Both the position numbers and the translations under genes were made by a program. A DNA stretch of 48,581 bases from Candidatus Brocadia sp. WS118 (GTDB lineage Bacteria; Planctomycetota; Brocadiia; Brocadiales; Brocadiaceae): assembly GCA_007618135.1 (NCBI GenBank), contig PHFX01000159.1:1-48581 (forward strand). Direction: 5' to 3'. Every line of letters starts with the position of its first letter. The first letter of the stretch is position 1. This document shows positions 13,776-23,082 of the stretch, one piece after another. The notes beneath the pieces were generated by a model. The model was given only the letters and a program-made list of their open reading frames with translations, ran no database searches and was not told the origin of the DNA.

Positions 13776-16700
13776 TTAACAAACAAAATCAATAGTAATC
13801 AACTTTAGCAATGCAGGATTATAGGGTGGGATTTCTTCTCTTTCCATAGCCAGCTTTCCTTCGAGGAATTCTGATATCTCCCCAAGAAGTCTTTTCCAGC
13901 TTTTATGATTATTCTTATAGTTTTTCCACACAGCCCTCAACTTTTGAAGCCTCTTTTTGGTAAGACTTATTGTTAATAACTTTTCATTTGCCATTTCCCA
14001 TTTCTCTTCACTTTTTTTGTCCTCAGCAAAGTCGAGAAGATACTCATCTATTCTTAAATCTATCTCTCTGATAAGCGTGGATACAAATTTCTTGCTTTTG
14101 TCTGAGTTTAATTCGCCGAAAGTAGAATCAACTGTTTCTCGTTGCTCTACTTCCTTATAAATTAACTCTATCTCTTTGATTGTTTCTGAATTCAAATTAT
14201 AAACCTTTTCAAAGAAATTTGGTATTTCTCTTACCTCGCCTGGAAGACAGGAAATATAATCCAGTATCTTTGTCTTATTGGTAATTTTTTCACCTCTTAT
14301 AAAGTCGTAAAAAAACCAGAAATGGAAAGCATCACCGTATTTATAATACAAAAATATCCCTTTTGTCCCTTTCTTGAGACCACTGTATATCCCCAATGGA
14401 ATTGATTCCAGTTCCTGTATAGCCCTTGCTTTTAAATAATCCTTCAACGGCTGATAAAACTTTTCTCCGCCGCCAAAGACCTCCTTTTCTAACTTATCAA
14501 ATATGGTTGCGTCCTGTTCCTTTATCCTTCTTATAACGCCGAACACTTTTGGGTTAACCTCTTCTCCAAGGACAGTAACATCAAGGCCGACAGCGCTATC
14601 AATATTTCGAATCTTATTCTGAAGGACTTCTACAAGGCGCAAGAGGTCTTCCAGTTCTTCTTCCGGAAAGAAATTATACACATAGATTTCCTTAAACGGA
14701 GAGCCGATTCTGTCAATCCTACCCGCTCTTTGAATCATCCTGGTCGGATTCCAGTGGAGGTCGTAATTTATCAGATAGCGAGCTTTCTGGAGGTTCATTC
14801 CCTCCGAAAGCACGTCAGTACTCATAAGAATATTGATCTTCCCATCCATAAAGTTGGATACAATTTCTGTGCGTTTAGCAGCCGAAGTTACCCTTCCGGA
14901 AATCTTTTCAATACTTATTTTGGAAAATAAGGAATCTTCAGAAATCTTCTCGTAGATGTAATCCAGGGTATCGGCGTAATAGGTAAAAATAACCACTTGT
15001 CCTTTTGTGCTAAGTTCCAGCAATCTTTTTTTCAATTCTTTTAGCTTAGCATCGGCTTCTGCATTAATCTCCTCAACCTTTTTGCCCATCTCTTTAAAAA
15101 GAGTTATGTCCTTTTCTATATCCCTGAAAAACTTTTCTTTTCTGTAATTATCAATGTTTATATCTTCCAACTCGTCTATAAATTCCTCTGGTGTTTCCTC
15201 ATCCTGGCTTGACACATATTTATAAAAAGAATTTTTTGTTAGGAACTTGCCCTTCCCCAAATACTCGTTGAACTTTAGCAAGAAATTTACATGATTTGAG
15301 ATGCTTTTACGAAATGCGTCAACACTGCTTTCGAGTCTCTTTAAGAGGATAGTTCTGAAAATGCCTTCTAACGCCACCATTCGTCCTAACGCCATTTCTT
15401 CTTCTTTCGATAGTTTCTCTGTTCTGTATTCAGGATCAAGAATCCTGTAATATGCCATTGTTAATTCTTCAGTAATTGTGCGGGATATATCCCTGTACAG
15501 TCCCTGGTACGCCTTATCGAGTTGATAATCGATATTTTCCAGTATCCTTTCAGGAAATAGAATCTTTTTGCCATTTACCTCTGCATCTGGATAATTCTGC
15601 TTGATATAGTCCCGCGTCCTCCTTATTGATATCTCATTCATAAGATCATTCAACAGGTTAGGGTCTTCTTCCTTATCAACGTCTTTAAAAAATTTAAAGA
15701 GGTCTAATATGCCCTCTTTCATAAAAGTTTTCTGGTCAGTCAAGGTAAGGAGCATTATTTGCCAGTAAAGGTCCCATATCGTATTGTTGATGGGTGTGGC
15801 TGTAAGGAAGAGGATATAGGGCCTTTCTCCACCCTTTGTTATATGATCCGATATGAGGGTAAAGAAATTCTCCCACCGGTTGGAAAGAGGATTCCTAAAA
15901 TTATGGCTTTCATCGACCACTAGTAAAGAGACCTCTGTCATATCACCGCCGATAGCCTGTCGTGCCTTTTGAAGAAATTCTTCAGTAGCAAGCTCCTCCT
16001 GTGACAGTATGCTTTCGGAAAGCAACAAGTCTTTAACCTCATCTCTCCACATATTTCTCAACTGAGCCGGACAGACGACGAGAAACCTCTTTCTCTTGTA
16101 AAATCCAAACTCCTCTATGATTTTTTTTGCAATCCATGTCTTGCCCAAGCCAACTGAATCCGCGACCATACAGGCTTTATACTTTTTAAGTCGGGTAAAA
16201 ACCCTTCTTACGGCATCGTCCTGAAACTCTGCAAGGTTAACCTTTGAATCTGGTAACGTTTCTTCTCCCCCCTTTTTTTCTTCGTATTCCGATTGAATAT
16301 CGTCTTTTTGAAGTTCGTAAAGGGATTTTATATAAACCTCATAGGGTGTATATTCCCTCGTCCCAAACCGTGAGGCTTCAAGAATCTTAATAAGTTCAGC
16401 TTTAAAATCTACCGCTTCATTCCAGAATTTATCAAACCACTTTTCCCTTACATACTTAGCCTCAGCCTCAAGGGAAACTGAGTTAAGTTCTGTGTTGTGA
16501 GTCAGCCCTGAAGGGGTAAAGTTTGAAGAACCTACAACAATGAGCTGGTCAAAGATATATGCCTTCCCATGAAGGAATTCCTTGTCATAGAGTTTTACCT
16601 CTACGTTATCTTTATTGAGAAATCGTATGAATTCCTTGACCAGACTATCCTTCTCTTGAGAAAGGTCAAACCCCTCAACCTCTTCCCGAATCATTTTTGA

Positions 16701-16925
16701 AAGTACTTCACCCAACGTAACCTCATTTTTTATCTCCGGTGTCTTTCCCAGAAGCAGGCGAAAATGTCTAACACCTTGAATATTGTCCTTTATAAAAGCA
16801 AACGCCTGGATGTTAAAGAAGGCGGTAGCAATATCGAATTGTGTATTGGGAATTTCCTTCAGGACATCGTTAAGGAATGTAGATAACTTTACATCGCTGT
16901 TGTCTATGATTTTTTTGGGGATCAT
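13776..16925 (-). CDS. PLD-domain SNF2-family helicase (defence type)
   Basis: A 1049-residue protein that joins a phospholipase D-type nuclease domain to an SNF2/DEAD-like helicase. The PLD motif is [20 protein letters not shown] (H119, K121, N135). The ATPase part shows Walker A DSVGLGKT (about 256-263), motif II DESH (338-341), LTATP (374-378) and the C-terminal helicase motifs [11 protein letters not shown] and [10 protein letters not shown] (about 700-745). The C-terminal 300 residues are unassigned. Proteins of this build occur in restriction-like defence loci next to large methyltransferases; here one is encoded at 19270-23082. Its ATG overlaps the stop of the toxin-like gene by four bases (ATGA), so the two are translationally coupled. 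It may scan and cleave unmodified DNA. Confidence 0.88.
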
Positions 16926-18444: not shown

Positions 18445-18564
18445 TCACACGCTCCTTGCCTTATCCAGCCTGTTTTTCACCAGTGCGCACACCGTCCAGC
18501 AGCCATCGTTTCGTTTGACCTCCGTTATGTTAATGATGTCAAAAATAGTGTCATCGAGGGTATT
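18445..18564 (-). pseudogene. relic of a second methyltransferase C-terminus
   Basis: The last 39 or so codons read NTLDDTIFDIINITEVKRND and end VCALVKNRLDKARSV-stop. The intact methyltransferase at 19270-23082 ends KALDDVVFDILGLTQDEQNE.. and VCELVKNRLDKARSV. The tails are clearly homologous but diverged, so this is the 3' end of a related, separate gene and not a recent copy. The rest is missing; a palindromic repeat and the RAYT gene lie where it should be. Confidence 0.75.
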
Positions 18565-18572
18565 GCAGTTTT

Positions 18573-18600
18573 GTAGTGGCAATTCATGAATTACCACTAC
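18573..18600. repeat. RAYT-associated palindrome, downstream copy
   Basis: A 28-bp near-perfect palindrome, GTAGTGGCAATTCATGAATT followed by ACCACTAC. It shares the core AATTCATGAATT with seven other copies in the window. The RAYT stop codon TGA (18584-18586) is formed by this repeat, so the gene's last codons are repeat-derived. Confidence 0.85.
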
Positions 18601-19204
18601 ATTTCGATTCATTTTTATCGTCTTTTAGATTTTCAAATATTTCATCTTCTAACAAGTCATTTCCTGTTCTTTCAGGATTTTCTCGATCAAGGTGCCATTT
18701 TAATGGATTATTCTGAATATATTCCCTGATCTTGTTCAATTTATCTACATTCCGTATGATGTGCTCGTAATAATTATACTGCCAAAAAGGAATGCCTGTT
18801 GCGTTTCGTGCGATGTTTCCCTGTTTTGCCGCATTCATTTTGAAATATCCAATAGCTTTGGGAATGAGCATCCTGCGCCTTTCAATTTGTTGATTCGTGC
18901 AATCTTTCCCCTGTAGGGGCAATTCATGAATTGCCCCTACACTATCGATAATCTTAATGATTCCGTGAATATGGTTGGGCATTACAACAAATTTGTCTAA
19001 TCCAATATTGGCATAACGTCCTGTCAAACTATTCCAGCATTCTAAAACAGTCTTGCCGAATTGATTTAAAATCATTTCCCTATCAGTTACGTCCCCCAGT
19101 ATGCATTCCCTGTTGTAAGTGCATATTGTTATAAAATACGCACCTGCCCGTGAGTAATCATAGTCTTTAAGCCGTATAGATTTTCTAAACTTTGGATGGT
19201 TCAT
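18584..19204 (-). CDS. REP-associated tyrosine transposase (RAYT, Y1/HUH)
   Basis: A 206-residue single-strand transposase of the IS200-like Y1 group domesticated with REP palindromes. The N-terminus RKSIRLKDYDYSRAGAYFIT and ICTYNRECIL is typical. The HUH metal-binding pair is in VMPNHIHGI (H78, H80), and the likely nucleophilic tyrosine is in WQYNYYEHIIRN (Y146). The gene is bracketed by palindromes at 18573-18600 and 19235-19264. A third copy (18913-18940) is inside the gene, in frame, adding VGAIHELPLQ at about 89-98, just after the HUH loop. It stands between the large methyltransferase and the methyltransferase relic. All catalytic residues are present, so it may be active and may have spread the repeats. 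Confidence 0.9.
   Translation of the reverse strand: MNHPKFRKSIRLKDYDYSRAGAYFITICTYNRECILGDVTDREMILNQFGKTVLECWNSLTGRYANIGLDKFVVMPNHIHGIIKIIDSVGAIHELPLQGKDCTNQQIERRRMLIPKAIGYFKMNAAKQGNIARNATGIPFWQYNYYEHIIRNVDKLNKIREYIQNNPLKWHLDRENPERTGNDLLEDEIFENLKDDKNESKCSGNS
18913..18940. repeat. palindrome copy inside the RAYT gene
   Basis: A perfect 28-bp palindrome with outer GTAGGGGC and core AATTCATGAATT. It adds codons for VGAIHELPL in frame between the HUH motif and the next helix of the transposase. Confidence 0.9.
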
Positions 19205-19234
19205 AATATGTTCGTTTGCAAATTTTATTGTATT

Positions 19235-19264
19235 TGTAGATGCAATTCATGAATTGCATCTACA
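19235..19264. repeat. palindrome copy upstream of the RAYT
   Basis: A perfect 30-bp palindrome, TGTAGATGCAATTCAT then its complement, filling most of the 65-base gap between the methyltransferase stop (19270) and the RAYT start (19204). Its arms use GATG in place of GGGG, a sub-family also seen at 20383-20406. Confidence 0.9.
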
Positions 19265-19269
19265 GAACA

Positions 19270-22200
19270 TCATACCGACCGTGCCTTATCAAGCCTGTTT
19301 TTTACCAGCTCACACACTGCCCAGTAGACCTCGTTTTGTTCATCCTGAGTCAGTCCGAGGATGTCGAATACAACATCGTCTAAAGCCTTGCGGTCGGGAA
19401 ATGGATTGGGTTTTTGTTCACGAATCGGAAGGTTTGGATTAATACCGCATTGCTCATAAAACGACATGTTGCATTTTTCAGAAAAATTATCCAAAATATT
19501 TTTTAACATCTTTTCTTCACTATTAATATTATCTGGAGAAAGGGTTAATAAATCTGACACCTCATAAGTTTGAATCTTTAAAAGTCCTCCACCAAAATTG
19601 GACCGTCCTATCATATTTATAAATAATTGTGAAATAATACTGTTTAGATATATGGAAAGTGCAATCGTATTTTTTGTTGTATGGATTTCCTGAAAATTGT
19701 CACTAACCCACATTCCTTCCCGACTATAATAAAAACGCATGTAATCGTTAACCAGATAATTGCAAGCTAATAAAGACGCTGGTCGACCAGCTATTGCCCA
19801 CCATTTATCACGAGATTTGCAAGATGGCCGCCTATTAATTTTCTGCTGTTTACCCCACTGTAAATAAGTTCTTAAACCATTCTGCGGTTTATGTTTCGCA
19901 TCAAGCATTAGCAAGTGCTTTTTTAAAATAGAGGATTTAACATTAAGAGTTTCGACATCCCTCGGGCTAAGAAATGCGCATGCCAAATATTCTTCCTCAA
20001 TCCTGATTCCTTCTGGCAACCCATCATATTTTGGTATAAGCTCACAGAATTTACCATCTTTTTTGATATCAAAATGCTTACTTGGCAGATAAAAAAACTC
20101 ATTGCACCCTGTTTTAATTCCAAACCTTACCTCTGCAATATCTCCAAGCCTTACCAGTTTACCTTTTCCTTTTTCAAGGATGGTAAAGAATATATCCGGC
20201 GCCCGGAGGTATTTGCCACCCCATTTGTTCCCTTCATATCTGCCTGTCAGAAATTTATCTTTTATGAGGGATTTTTGTTTTGGTTTTTGTAGGGGCGATT
20301 CACGAATCGCCCCAATATTTTTGGGCAGTTCATGAACTGCCCCTACAGATTTAGGTAATGCCTGGTTTGTTTTCATATCTTTGGGCAATTCATGAATTGC
20401 ATCTACATCTTCCGGGCACTCCCATCCCTCTTCTAAAAGGGTCTCCTGTTTTACGGGAAAGACCCTGTATGTGTCGGCCTTTACTATGTCGTTTGCCCTT
20501 TCTATTTCAAGGAGGTTTCTTGTATTGATTACCTCCTCAAAGGGCCTTTTGAACATGACAAATCTTGCAATGTTTTGTAGGGGCAATTCATGAATTGCCC
20601 CTACATTCGGCGCACTGAAAATGGCAATAATGGTGTTAACGTCTGCATGTTCAAAGCTTCTCTTGCTCTGGTTGTCGTAGATGGCCTTTATGTGGCAATA
20701 TTTTATGAGAAATTCTTGCAGGTCTTTACCATAGCCCACGTCAAGCCATGAGTTTGAGGTGATGAAACAGAACGTGCCTTTGTTGTTAAGAAGCGCCAAG
20801 CCGTGGAAATAAAAGTAGATGTAATAGTCGCTTTTCTTATCAATCTTTTGTATGAATGGGAAATGGGCATGAACAGAGTTGAAAAGCCTTTCCTTATAAT
20901 CCTTCTTGTCTTCCAGCGTTACCTCGGCCTTTAATTTATTGGGAGGCGCTATCTTCTCCTGTCGCACATACGGTGGGTTGCCGATGACAATATCAAAACC
21001 TCCCTTGTCTCCAAAAATCTCTGCAAAGTCAATGTCCCATACAAAGGGTTTGTGACCGGGTTCCCTAATCTTTCTTTTCACCTCTTTTGTCTCTTCTATT
21101 TTTCGATTCAAAACCTTTATTTGTTCCTCGAAAAGCCCTTTTTGTTCAGGCTCTACTCTTTCCGCCTCTTTTAATAATTTGCGCTGCACAGGTTTCTTTT
21201 CTGTTCCCAGTGTCTGAATCTTTTTTTGATGGATAATGATTCTCTCATCCAGTATTTCCGTGAAAATCCTGAGTTCTTCCTGGATGAGGGATTTCGGGTC
21301 CTTGAATTTTGCCGTAGGGTCATTGTTGTAATATTTCTCTTTTTCGGTCTTAAGGGATGATAGCGTTCTTTTTAAAGCGGGGGAAATTTCCATATCCTTT
21401 ACACGGAGGCTTATTCCTTCGACCTTTTGAACCAGAGAATCACCAGCGCGCAGATTCAAATCCAGATTTGGAAGCAGCGGAAAGAGTTTTCTCCGTTCAT
21501 AGGGAATGTCCTCTTCAATGATAAGCTGTAACCACAGCCTGAGTTCAGCCGAATGAACCGCCCAGGGCATGACGTCCACGCCGTAAAGGGAATTTCCTAT
21601 GATCTTCTTTTTAAGCTCGAATTCTGTCATTTCTCTCCGGATGTGGTTATACGTGAGTCTATATAGCTCTACAAGGACGTGAAGCATTCCCACAAGAAAT
21701 GCGCCGCTTCCGCAGGCAGGGTCAATCACTGCAAGATTATCAAGGGCTTCCTCGATGCGATACCAGAGTTTATGCCTTGTAAAATATCCCTCAACCTCTT
21801 TTTTGTCCGCATCAAAGAGCAGCCGGTAAATCCATTCCTTGGGTAGGGGCAATTCATGAATTGCCCCTACACGATTGGCAATATACTCTACAAGGGATCT
21901 CCTGCACATGAAGTCAACCTCCACTGCCGGCGTATAAAAGATGCCGAGGTCTTGTCTCTCATATATCTCCTCTGCTACATTGGAGAGTGATTCATAAACA
22001 TACCCGATCATCTGCGGGTCAACAGCAACCTCAATATCTAAGGGAAGTTCTTCACGAATGGTAAAGTTGTATTGCTCAAGGAAATTGAACACCTCTTCAA
22101 AGAGGTTGTCGCTGATTTTAAAAGGCAGATCATCCAGGTCATTTCTATGAAAGAGACCTCCATTCAGATATGGGGCATTGGCAAGGATGGAGTTTACATC

Positions 22201-23082
22201 TTTAGGGTGAAAGAGCGGGTGACTATATTGGTTATTGAATGCTTCCAGGAAAAGTATTCTTAACCAATTTTCGTAAAAGGTGTCTTCTTTTGCCTTACCG
22301 TTTCTCCTTTCCTCTTTATATCTATACCAGTACCACTTAATAAACTTAGGGTCATTATTGAGCCATCTCTTTTTAGAGACAAAGTAGAGGAACATGAGCC
22401 TGCTCAGGCACTGCAGGGCAAGTTCATGCGCATGCTTGACGGGTATTTCCTGACTTTCAAAGGCCTTCCTGAGCTTGAAAAATGCATTTTTGTACTCATC
22501 AAAAAACCTATCGGTAACCTTCTCAACGCTGAAGGCGTCCTTCCACCGACGCCAGATATCCCTCCAATTTTCTTCTTCACCGGTAAGGACAAGGTTGGAA
22601 ATGGTAAGAAGGTCTGTATGATAAGTATTCTCCCTGTCAAGAATAAGCCGGGTCAGCTTAAGCTTGTGTTTGCCTTCCTCAATACGTTCGAATTCAGGAA
22701 AGATAAAAATGTATCCTTTGTAATCTGCGGTGAGGATAAGAAGGAAATTCAAATACCTGTCTGAAAGGCGTTTTGCAAGGTATCGTATAAGAGGGTTTGA
22801 AACGGTTTTCGTTTCTATCAGGAATACCTGAAGCTTACTGTCATAATTAAAAACGGTAAAGATATCTTTAACCTTTTCCCGTTCTTCTCTGGCAAAATCA
22901 AACTCTTCTAATTTTCTTTTATAGGTAGGATCAAGCAACTTACCGTCAGGATATCCAAGTATCCGAAAAAGCCCATAGACCTTTTCAGGTAAATCCATCC
23001 CTGGAATAAATTCTTGAACAGTCCCTCTTATGTCCATATAATAGTCCTTATACAAGTGGGAGTAGTTCTGCTGGCCTTTCAA
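19270..23082 (-). CDS. type IIG-like restriction/modification enzyme (nuclease-methyltransferase-TRD)
   Basis: A 1270-residue N6-adenine methyltransferase of the Eco57I/PglX kind. The N-terminal part has a PD-(D/E)xK-like motif, FNYDSKLQVFLIETKT (D81, E90, K92), suggesting a fused nuclease. SAM-binding motif I VIDPACGSGAFLVGM is near residue 453 and catalytic motif IV IVIGNPPYVRQEK near 702, the gamma-class order. The region from about 950 to 1200 looks like a TaqI/Eco57I-type target recognition domain. Five palindromic repeats sit in the gene in frame, encoding VGAIHELPL, VGAIHELPLQ, DAIHELPK, VGAVHELPK and IGAIRESPLQ. The likely partner is the PLD-SNF2 helicase at the other end of the leftward block. 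The 3' end is homologous to the relic at 18445-18564. Confidence 0.88.
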   Translation of the reverse strand: MKGQQNYSHLYKDYYMDIRGTVQEFIPGMDLPEKVYGLFRILGYPDGKLLDPTYKRKLEEFDFAREEREKVKDIFTVFNYDSKLQVFLIETKTVSNPLIRYLAKRLSDRYLNFLLILTADYKGYIFIFPEFERIEEGKHKLKLTRLILDRENTYHTDLLTISNLVLTGEEENWRDIWRRWKDAFSVEKVTDRFFDEYKNAFFKLRKAFESQEIPVKHAHELALQCLSRLMFLYFVSKKRWLNNDPKFIKWYWYRYKEERRNGKAKEDTFYENWLRILFLEAFNNQYSHPLFHPKDVNSILANAPYLNGGLFHRNDLDDLPFKISDNLFEEVFNFLEQYNFTIREELPLDIEVAVDPQMIGYVYESLSNVAEEIYERQDLGIFYTPAVEVDFMCRRSLVEYIANRVGAIHELPLPKEWIYRLLFDADKKEVEGYFTRHKLWYRIEEALDNLAVIDPACGSGAFLVGMLHVLVELYRLTYNHIRREMTEFELKKKIIGNSLYGVDVMPWAVHSAELRLWLQLIIEEDIPYERRKLFPLLPNLDLNLRAGDSLVQKVEGISLRVKDMEISPALKRTLSSLKTEKEKYYNNDPTAKFKDPKSLIQEELRIFTEILDERIIIHQKKIQTLGTEKKPVQRKLLKEAERVEPEQKGLFEEQIKVLNRKIEETKEVKRKIREPGHKPFVWDIDFAEIFGDKGGFDIVIGNPPYVRQEKIAPPNKLKAEVTLEDKKDYKERLFNSVHAHFPFIQKIDKKSDYYIYFYFHGLALLNNKGTFCFITSNSWLDVGYGKDLQEFLIKYCHIKAIYDNQSKRSFEHADVNTIIAIFSAPNVGAIHELPLQNIARFVMFKRPFEEVINTRNLLEIERANDIVKADTYRVFPVKQETLLEEGWECPEDVDAIHELPKDMKTNQALPKSVGAVHELPKNIGAIRESPLQKPKQKSLIKDKFLTGRYEGNKWGGKYLRAPDIFFTILEKGKGKLVRLGDIAEVRFGIKTGCNEFFYLPSKHFDIKKDGKFCELIPKYDGLPEGIRIEEEYLACAFLSPRDVETLNVKSSILKKHLLMLDAKHKPQNGLRTYLQWGKQQKINRRPSCKSRDKWWAIAGRPASLLACNYLVNDYMRFYYSREGMWVSDNFQEIHTTKNTIALSIYLNSIISQLFINMIGRSNFGGGLLKIQTYEVSDLLTLSPDNINSEEKMLKNILDNFSEKCNMSFYEQCGINPNLPIREQKPNPFPDRKALDDVVFDILGLTQDEQNEVYWAVCELVKNRLDKARSV
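20289..20406. repeat. cluster of three palindromes inside the methyltransferase gene
   Basis: Copies at 20289-20313 (GGGGCGATTCACGAATCGCC type), 20323-20346 (GGGCAGTTCATGAACTGCCC) and 20383-20406 (GGGCAATTCATGAATTGC, ending ATCTAC). All preserve the reading frame and encode IGAIRESPL, VGAVHELPK and DAIHELPK. The first two carry paired changes that keep the palindrome (CAGTT/AACTG, CGATT/AATCG), as if the hairpin had been maintained by selection or the copies came from different source repeats. Confidence 0.85.
20577..20604. repeat. palindrome copy inside the methyltransferase gene
   Basis: A perfect 28-bp copy (outer GTAGGGGC, core AATTCATGAATT) in frame, encoding VGAIHELPL between FSAPN and QNIARFVMF. 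Confidence 0.9.
21843..21870. repeat. palindrome copy inside the methyltransferase gene
   Basis: A perfect 28-bp copy in frame, encoding VGAIHELPL between EYIANR and PKEWIYRLLF, upstream of the SAM-binding domain. Confidence 0.9.

Follow-up and report, generated by a model that had tools for sequence, protein, structure and literature searches.

REPs and the RAYT transposases linked to them are among the most widespread repeats of bacteria, and what ties a RAYT to its REP family and limits its activity is a standing question. In TnpA-REP subclass 2.4, as presented in the main text of Quentin 2018 (PMC6006769), "double-foot" REPs are inserted in frame in the transposase's own genes. Several features in that text are shared with the locus analyzed here: the RAYT motifs NH[IFV]H, WQ and YIxNNP, REP ends of GT[AG]G and C[TC]AC, in-frame REPs between the HUH and Y motifs of tnpA-REP, and a scattered distribution across phyla. 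The main text of Di Nocera 2013 (PMC3733652) describes GTAG REPs and TIRtrons, including REPs within ORFs, the residues that they encode and their neutrality in linkers and loops. GTAG-tagged palindromes, an association with RAYTs, in-frame copies in protein genes (often genes of DNA metabolism) and REP ends that give stop codons are common to that account and to our locus. In contrast to the units of that account, ours is symmetric and carries a foot at either end, and its host is a type IIG-like methyltransferase gene with five copies, next to a RAYT. A preliminary description of this DNA had pointed to the palindromic elements of Rickettsia as a precedent. Those elements are also short palindromes read in frame within genes, but as covered in the main text of Di Nocera 2013 they are of the CGTC type and have no linked transposase, whereas here there is a presumed mobiliser with a cognate copy in its gene; the closest precedents are the two systems above rather than Rickettsia alone.

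A hairpin within its own transposase gene (Quentin 2018) and REPs in other ORFs (Di Nocera 2013) have already been described. The additions made here are the cognate match between internal and flanking palindromes and their codon-level conservation, which were not found in the main text of either paper; the paired-arm test and the copies in a neighboring methyltransferase were likewise not found in that of Quentin 2018. A literature search for the peptide VGAIHELPL or for the palindrome returned no match.

Eight palindromes within 3.3 kb

The window, a stretch of 48,581 nucleotides from Candidatus Brocadia sp. WS118 (contig PHFX01000159.1), belongs to a draft genome of 299 contigs and 5.04 Mb. 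Eight palindromes of about 30 bp, GTAGGGGCAATTCATGAATTGCCCCTAC and variants, lie within 3.3 kb of it: a RAYT gene has one at each end and a third inside, and the other five are in the methyltransferase gene. All of these were found where the preliminary description had placed them, around and inside the RAYT gene as well as in its neighbor; for the four copies listed below with 30 bp, the 28-bp units are 18573-18600, 18913-18940, 19236-19263 and 20577-20604. The core that it had taken to be common to them is not universal: AATTCATGAATT gives way to ATTCACGAAT in the copy at 20289 and to AGTTCATGAACT in the copy at 20319. The features are as follows (the palindromes have no strand).

18572-18601: REP palindrome at the RAYT 3′ end, TGTAGTGG type, with the RAYT stop codon inside
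18584-19204, reverse strand: RAYT (TnpA-REP, Y1/HUH transposase), 206 aa, HUH motif MPNHIH, Y motif YIQNNP
18912-18941: REP palindrome inside the RAYT gene, read VGAIHELPL, in the loop that follows the HUH strand
19235-19264: REP palindrome that separates the RAYT start from the methyltransferase stop, GATGC type
19270-23082, reverse strand: type IIG-like / Eco57I-type N6-adenine methyltransferase, 1270 aa (Pfam Eco57I, 1.4e-33; PADLOC REase_MTase_IIG, 1.8e-53)
19446-19993, reverse strand: variable C-terminal (target-recognition) segment of the methyltransferase, no palindrome inside
20289-20316: REP copy in the methyltransferase, IGAIRESPL, outer member of a three-copy cluster
20319-20346: REP copy in the methyltransferase, VGAVHELPK, middle of the cluster, one broken arm
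20379-20406: REP copy in the methyltransferase, VDAIHELPK, other end of the cluster
20576-20605: REP copy in the methyltransferase, NVGAIHELPLQ, 30/30 identical in G217 and G248 (two relatives, below)
21843-21870: REP copy in the methyltransferase, VGAIHELPL, in the loop ahead of methylase motif I

As DNA, the full units form hairpins with a 13-bp stem (three units tested). Each unit ends in GTAG on one side and CTAC on the other, and the two pair with each other within the stem. GTAG thus stands at one end of a stem-loop, as in the GTAG REP superfamily, but the GTAG foot is paired, which makes the unit a double-foot variant rather than the canonical form. The copies at 20289, 20319 and 20379 make up one cluster of 118 bp with unequal arms, and the copy at 18573 overlaps the RAYT 3′ end and supplies the RAYT stop codon in another phase.

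The consensus 28-mer has a single open phase of three, which reads VGAIHELPL, and stops in the other two. Because of these stops, the copy in the RAYT gene and all five in the methyltransferase gene lie in one phase, a survival effect, and the uniform phase is therefore no evidence for selection on the peptide. The preliminary description was right that the genic copies are translated in frame in both genes, but the uniformity of that frame is forced.

When the whole genome was searched with the full 28-mer, allowing up to 3 mismatches, 9 sites were found; the 18-bp core gave 22 sites, 8 of them in the 3.3 kb. The reversed-pattern control of the 28-mer search and the control of the core search both gave 0 across the 5.04 Mb, so eight copies per 3.3 kb are a strong local concentration for which chance is excluded. 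We did not accept the bare 12-bp core as a key for searching: with 2 mismatches it is not significant alone in the window.

The RAYT and its internal palindrome

The RAYT matches Pfam Y1_Tnp at the cut-off and NCBIfam REP_Tyr_transpos below it (E 3.8e-16; bit score 59, cut-off 80), and the best match of its predicted fold is 4er8, a RAYT bound to a REP hairpin. The NCBIfam and fold matches bear out the identity first proposed for the protein. It has the Y1 HUH fold and family together with the HUH motif and the Y...NP tyrosine motif of RAYT/TnpA-REP (class 2 TnpA-Y1) proteins, and residues H78, H80, Y162, N166 and P167 are invariant across 55 homologues. The palindromes at 18572-18601 and 19235-19264 flank the gene in the manner of inverted REPs, although the "inverted" part is uninformative because a near-perfect palindrome has no orientation. 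In the predicted structure the translated palindrome is a low-confidence coil between the strand at residues 78-85 and the helix at 102-110. A double-foot REP and an in-frame REP between HUH and Y are both features of TnpA-REP subclass 2.4, and the architecture fits that subclass; membership is putative and is based on a match to the NH[IFV]H / WQ / YIxNNP motifs.

The same arrangement recurs in other RAYTs. Among 74 distinct RAYTs from the window's family and from genomes of many phyla (part of them from genomes picked for holding the 28-mer, with kinship ignored in the tests), there are 49 in which the stretch from HUH to Y holds a near-perfect palindrome. A foot-pair test was positive in 47 of 73, compared with 1.0% in codon-shuffled controls, and several of the remaining RAYTs have inverted REP pairs or worn copies in the same loop. 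Altogether 19 palindrome classes occupy this loop, and the class tracks the RAYT tree, with 21 changes for the 19 classes. The internal palindrome is that of the gene's own flanks in 28 of the 32 RAYTs in which this could be tested, against a mean of 5 and a maximum of 13 in 20,000 shuffles of the internal/flank pairings (kinship again ignored). The palindrome is conserved at the level of nucleotides: in nine RAYTs that belong to the window's class and come from several phyla, four of them members of the window's own family found by protein search, the same residue is given by the same codon in 97.4% of cases inside the palindrome and in 49.8% elsewhere. In copies that depart from the consensus, 60 arm changes are paired so that complementarity is kept; the null gives a mean of 4.2 and a maximum of 11.

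On these sequence comparisons, the palindrome within the RAYT gene is the cognate element, preserved as DNA rather than protein. Since most RAYTs of this group have their own cognate REP, or a pair of REPs, in the same loop, conserved at the nucleotide level, we take the internal copy to be an inherited part of the element, and it is more likely a nucleic-acid site (for recognition, mobility or self-regulation) than a peptide. An in-frame cognate REP in a transposase gene, kept as DNA across phyla, is a concrete and testable candidate for the link between RAYT and REP.

Seven RAYTs (L264, L267, L268, L269, L270, L286 and L244) have in this loop, instead of a single palindrome, two REP hairpins in inverted orientation whose outer feet are GTAG and CTAC.

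Copies in the methyltransferase gene

By its sequence, with an Eco57I-type methylase domain, NPPY and a C-terminal recognition segment, the methyltransferase is type IIG-like. The preliminary description expected its inserts to fall in loops, and they do: they lie in length-variable stretches of the homologue alignment and are coils in the predicted model, which is poor (mean pLDDT 49, with low confidence over most of its length) and served only to place three insert sites in coils. All of the inserts are outside the target-recognition segment.

Two relatives help to place these copies. In G217, a genome of the same genus assembled as a single contig, all eight copies and the RAYT are present, at about 96% identity. 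G248, from another genus at about 82% identity, has an identical 20577 copy; at the place of the window's cluster of three it carries one symmetric GATGC copy, and behind the methyltransferase, at the place of the window's RAYT, it has a solo palindrome of GACGC type with both arms changed. Its locus thus holds two methyltransferase copies and one behind the gene, and no RAYT. This comparison indicates that the copies are real, unevenly spread among relatives and independent, today, of a RAYT at the locus. That the mobiliser sits next door, as first proposed, is plausible; G248 carries its methyltransferase copies with no RAYT there.

The 30 bp of the 20577 copy are unchanged while the flanks differ by about 17% from those of G248, which could reflect constraint, renewed copying or chance. 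At this site the other genus has the DNA palindrome intact, and no case of the peptide persisting there without the palindrome was seen. The preliminary description had also looked to homologues that lack exactly the repeat residues. None was found, and there was no clean empty site for the 21843 copy, the copy on contig C250, the type III restriction gene of this genome or any other of the loci compared, so that no occupied/empty comparison among those sites gives an exact insertion length. The C250 site sits in a larger rearrangement, and the methyltransferase and type III loops exceed those of distant homologues by fewer residues than a full unit.

The segment of about 180 aa that corresponds to target recognition is completely different in the window, G217 and G248, although the arms on either side of it are conserved. 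This has the look of TRD exchange, and it shows no connection with the palindromes. At the site in G248 that matches window position 21843 (L179, G248:C1), an unrelated palindrome-like repeat, read PPLQKGGEGGF, occupies the same methyltransferase loop. In G217 (L180, G217:C1), opposite window position ~20809, a one-base deletion breaks the methyltransferase frame, a pseudogene or a sequencing error.

Spread in this genome and in other bacteria

The exact 28-mer is present in at least 114 stretches of named genomes. The record titles, among the matches listed, name Cyanobacteria, Nitrospirota, Omnitrophota, Planctomycetota, Zixibacteria and Spirochaetota, along with Bacteroidota/Balneolota, Chloroflexota, Binatia, Terriglobia, a gammaproteobacterial symbiont and an Uhrbacteria bin. 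Most copies lie outside long open frames (14 of 115 are inside, among the matches listed), in agreement with the main text of Di Nocera 2013 (PMC3733652). Genes that match FabF, YchF, ArgS, SelA and a P-type ATPase are among those with the 28-mer in a long open frame. When these five were aligned with PDB entries, the copies fell in variable regions or beyond the part that aligned, and no clean length difference of +9 or +10 residues was found in the five alignments. An identical 28-bp unit in many phyla, housekeeping genes included, means that a mobile hairpin can become protein sequence.

Other repeats were noticed in the window genome. Worn palindrome copies lie in frame in a type III restriction subunit (G000:C58:51514, L189) and in a methyltransferase-like frame (G000:C256:76322, L182). 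Four copies of another class, GTAGGGACACGGTGCTCCGTGTCCCTAC, occur within 10 kb of one contig (G000:C236:737-9957). The GTAGTGGC variant belongs to a longer repeat of about 64 bp that is found on G000 contigs C250, C286 and C158 and in other genomes of the family, with many occurrences across it.

Interpretation and alternatives

We read the locus as a whole as a REPtron, in which a subclass-2.4-type TnpA-REP and its cognate double-foot REP (GTAG...CTAC) are accompanied by translated passengers, and we put the probability of this reading at about 0.8. It builds on the family and fold of the RAYT, on the positions, frame and arm pairing of the palindromes, on their sharing among genomes and on the cognacy, as observed here. 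By analogy with the IS200/IS605 and TnpA-REP enzymes, the HUH transposase would bind the hairpin in single-stranded DNA and cut at the GTAG foot, and the RAYT could in this way have placed copies nearby. A copy that landed in a gene would persist only in the sole open phase and in a loop, where it would add about nine residues with little effect. Because survival within a gene has these requirements and so few residues are added, near-neutral passengers are the most likely reading of the methyltransferase copies.

The copy within the RAYT gene might itself be such a passenger, a functionless result of repeated self-hits in a permissive loop that happens to be close to the transposase's own gene. 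Copies do exist in host genes, the RAYT loop is length-variable and modeled with low confidence, and a few RAYTs with a short loop have no palindrome at all (L283, L259, L256). However, in five RAYTs (L141, L143, L145, L222, L224) the internal palindrome is perfect although the scanned stretch has no flanking copy, and the codon-level conservation of 97% across phyla and the way the classes follow the RAYT tree also speak against it; we give this explanation somewhat less than an even chance. Selection for the VGAIHELPL peptide as a functional part of the RAYT or the methyltransferase is a very different matter. Its phase is constant within a class and the copy at the 20577 site is old and shared, but the phase is forced by stops, the peptides that other RAYT classes have at this position are unrelated (GRDTVHRVPT, VETHGRASLP, VGAGFKPAPT), and what is conserved is the codons and the pairing of the arms. 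On the codon and pairing evidence we reject selection on the peptide itself and consider it highly improbable. At the other extreme, the in-gene cognate hairpin of RAYTs of this group could be an obligatory nucleic-acid switch, with the transposase binding to or nicking the gene or mRNA that encodes it. We find this doubtful as it stands. On this reading the hairpin would set RAYT dosage and tie the enzyme to its REP family through evolution, and when the REP specificity of a lineage shifted, the flanking and in-gene copies would change together.

The preliminary description had proposed that the methyltransferase was a target because it bears specificity, and that insertions alter that specificity. 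Five copies in a single restriction-type gene, and further copies in the methyltransferase-like frame (C256) and the type III subunit (C58) of the same genome, speak for such diversification. Yet the copies in the methyltransferase avoid the target-recognition segment, relatives exchange that segment while the palindromes stay, and elsewhere the 28-mer also sits in fatty-acid, tRNA-charging, selenium and GTPase genes. On these grounds neither part of the proposal is supported, and diversification of specificity by REP insertion is a very poor prospect. An artefact of assembly or binning is less probable still, to the point of being negligible. The window genome is a draft in many contigs, but single-contig G217 has the same copies and G248 part of them, with flanks of about 82-96% identity, and the unit is present in isolate genomes of cyanobacteria and of Balneola/Gracilimonas. 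The concern over assembly errors that accompanied the first account of the locus is removed because independent genomes share the copies.

Neighborhood of the locus

A large SNF2/PLD helicase is encoded near the methyltransferase (window 13776-16925, reverse strand; PADLOC HKD+Snf2, E 3.4e-60), a hint that this is a defence-like cluster. Behind the RAYT, at window 18454-18590 on the reverse strand, lies the remnant of a second methyltransferase C-terminus (LDDTIFDIINITEVKRNDGCWTVCALVKNRLDKARSV*), which shares its reading frame with the palindrome at 18573 (VVVIHELPLQNCN).
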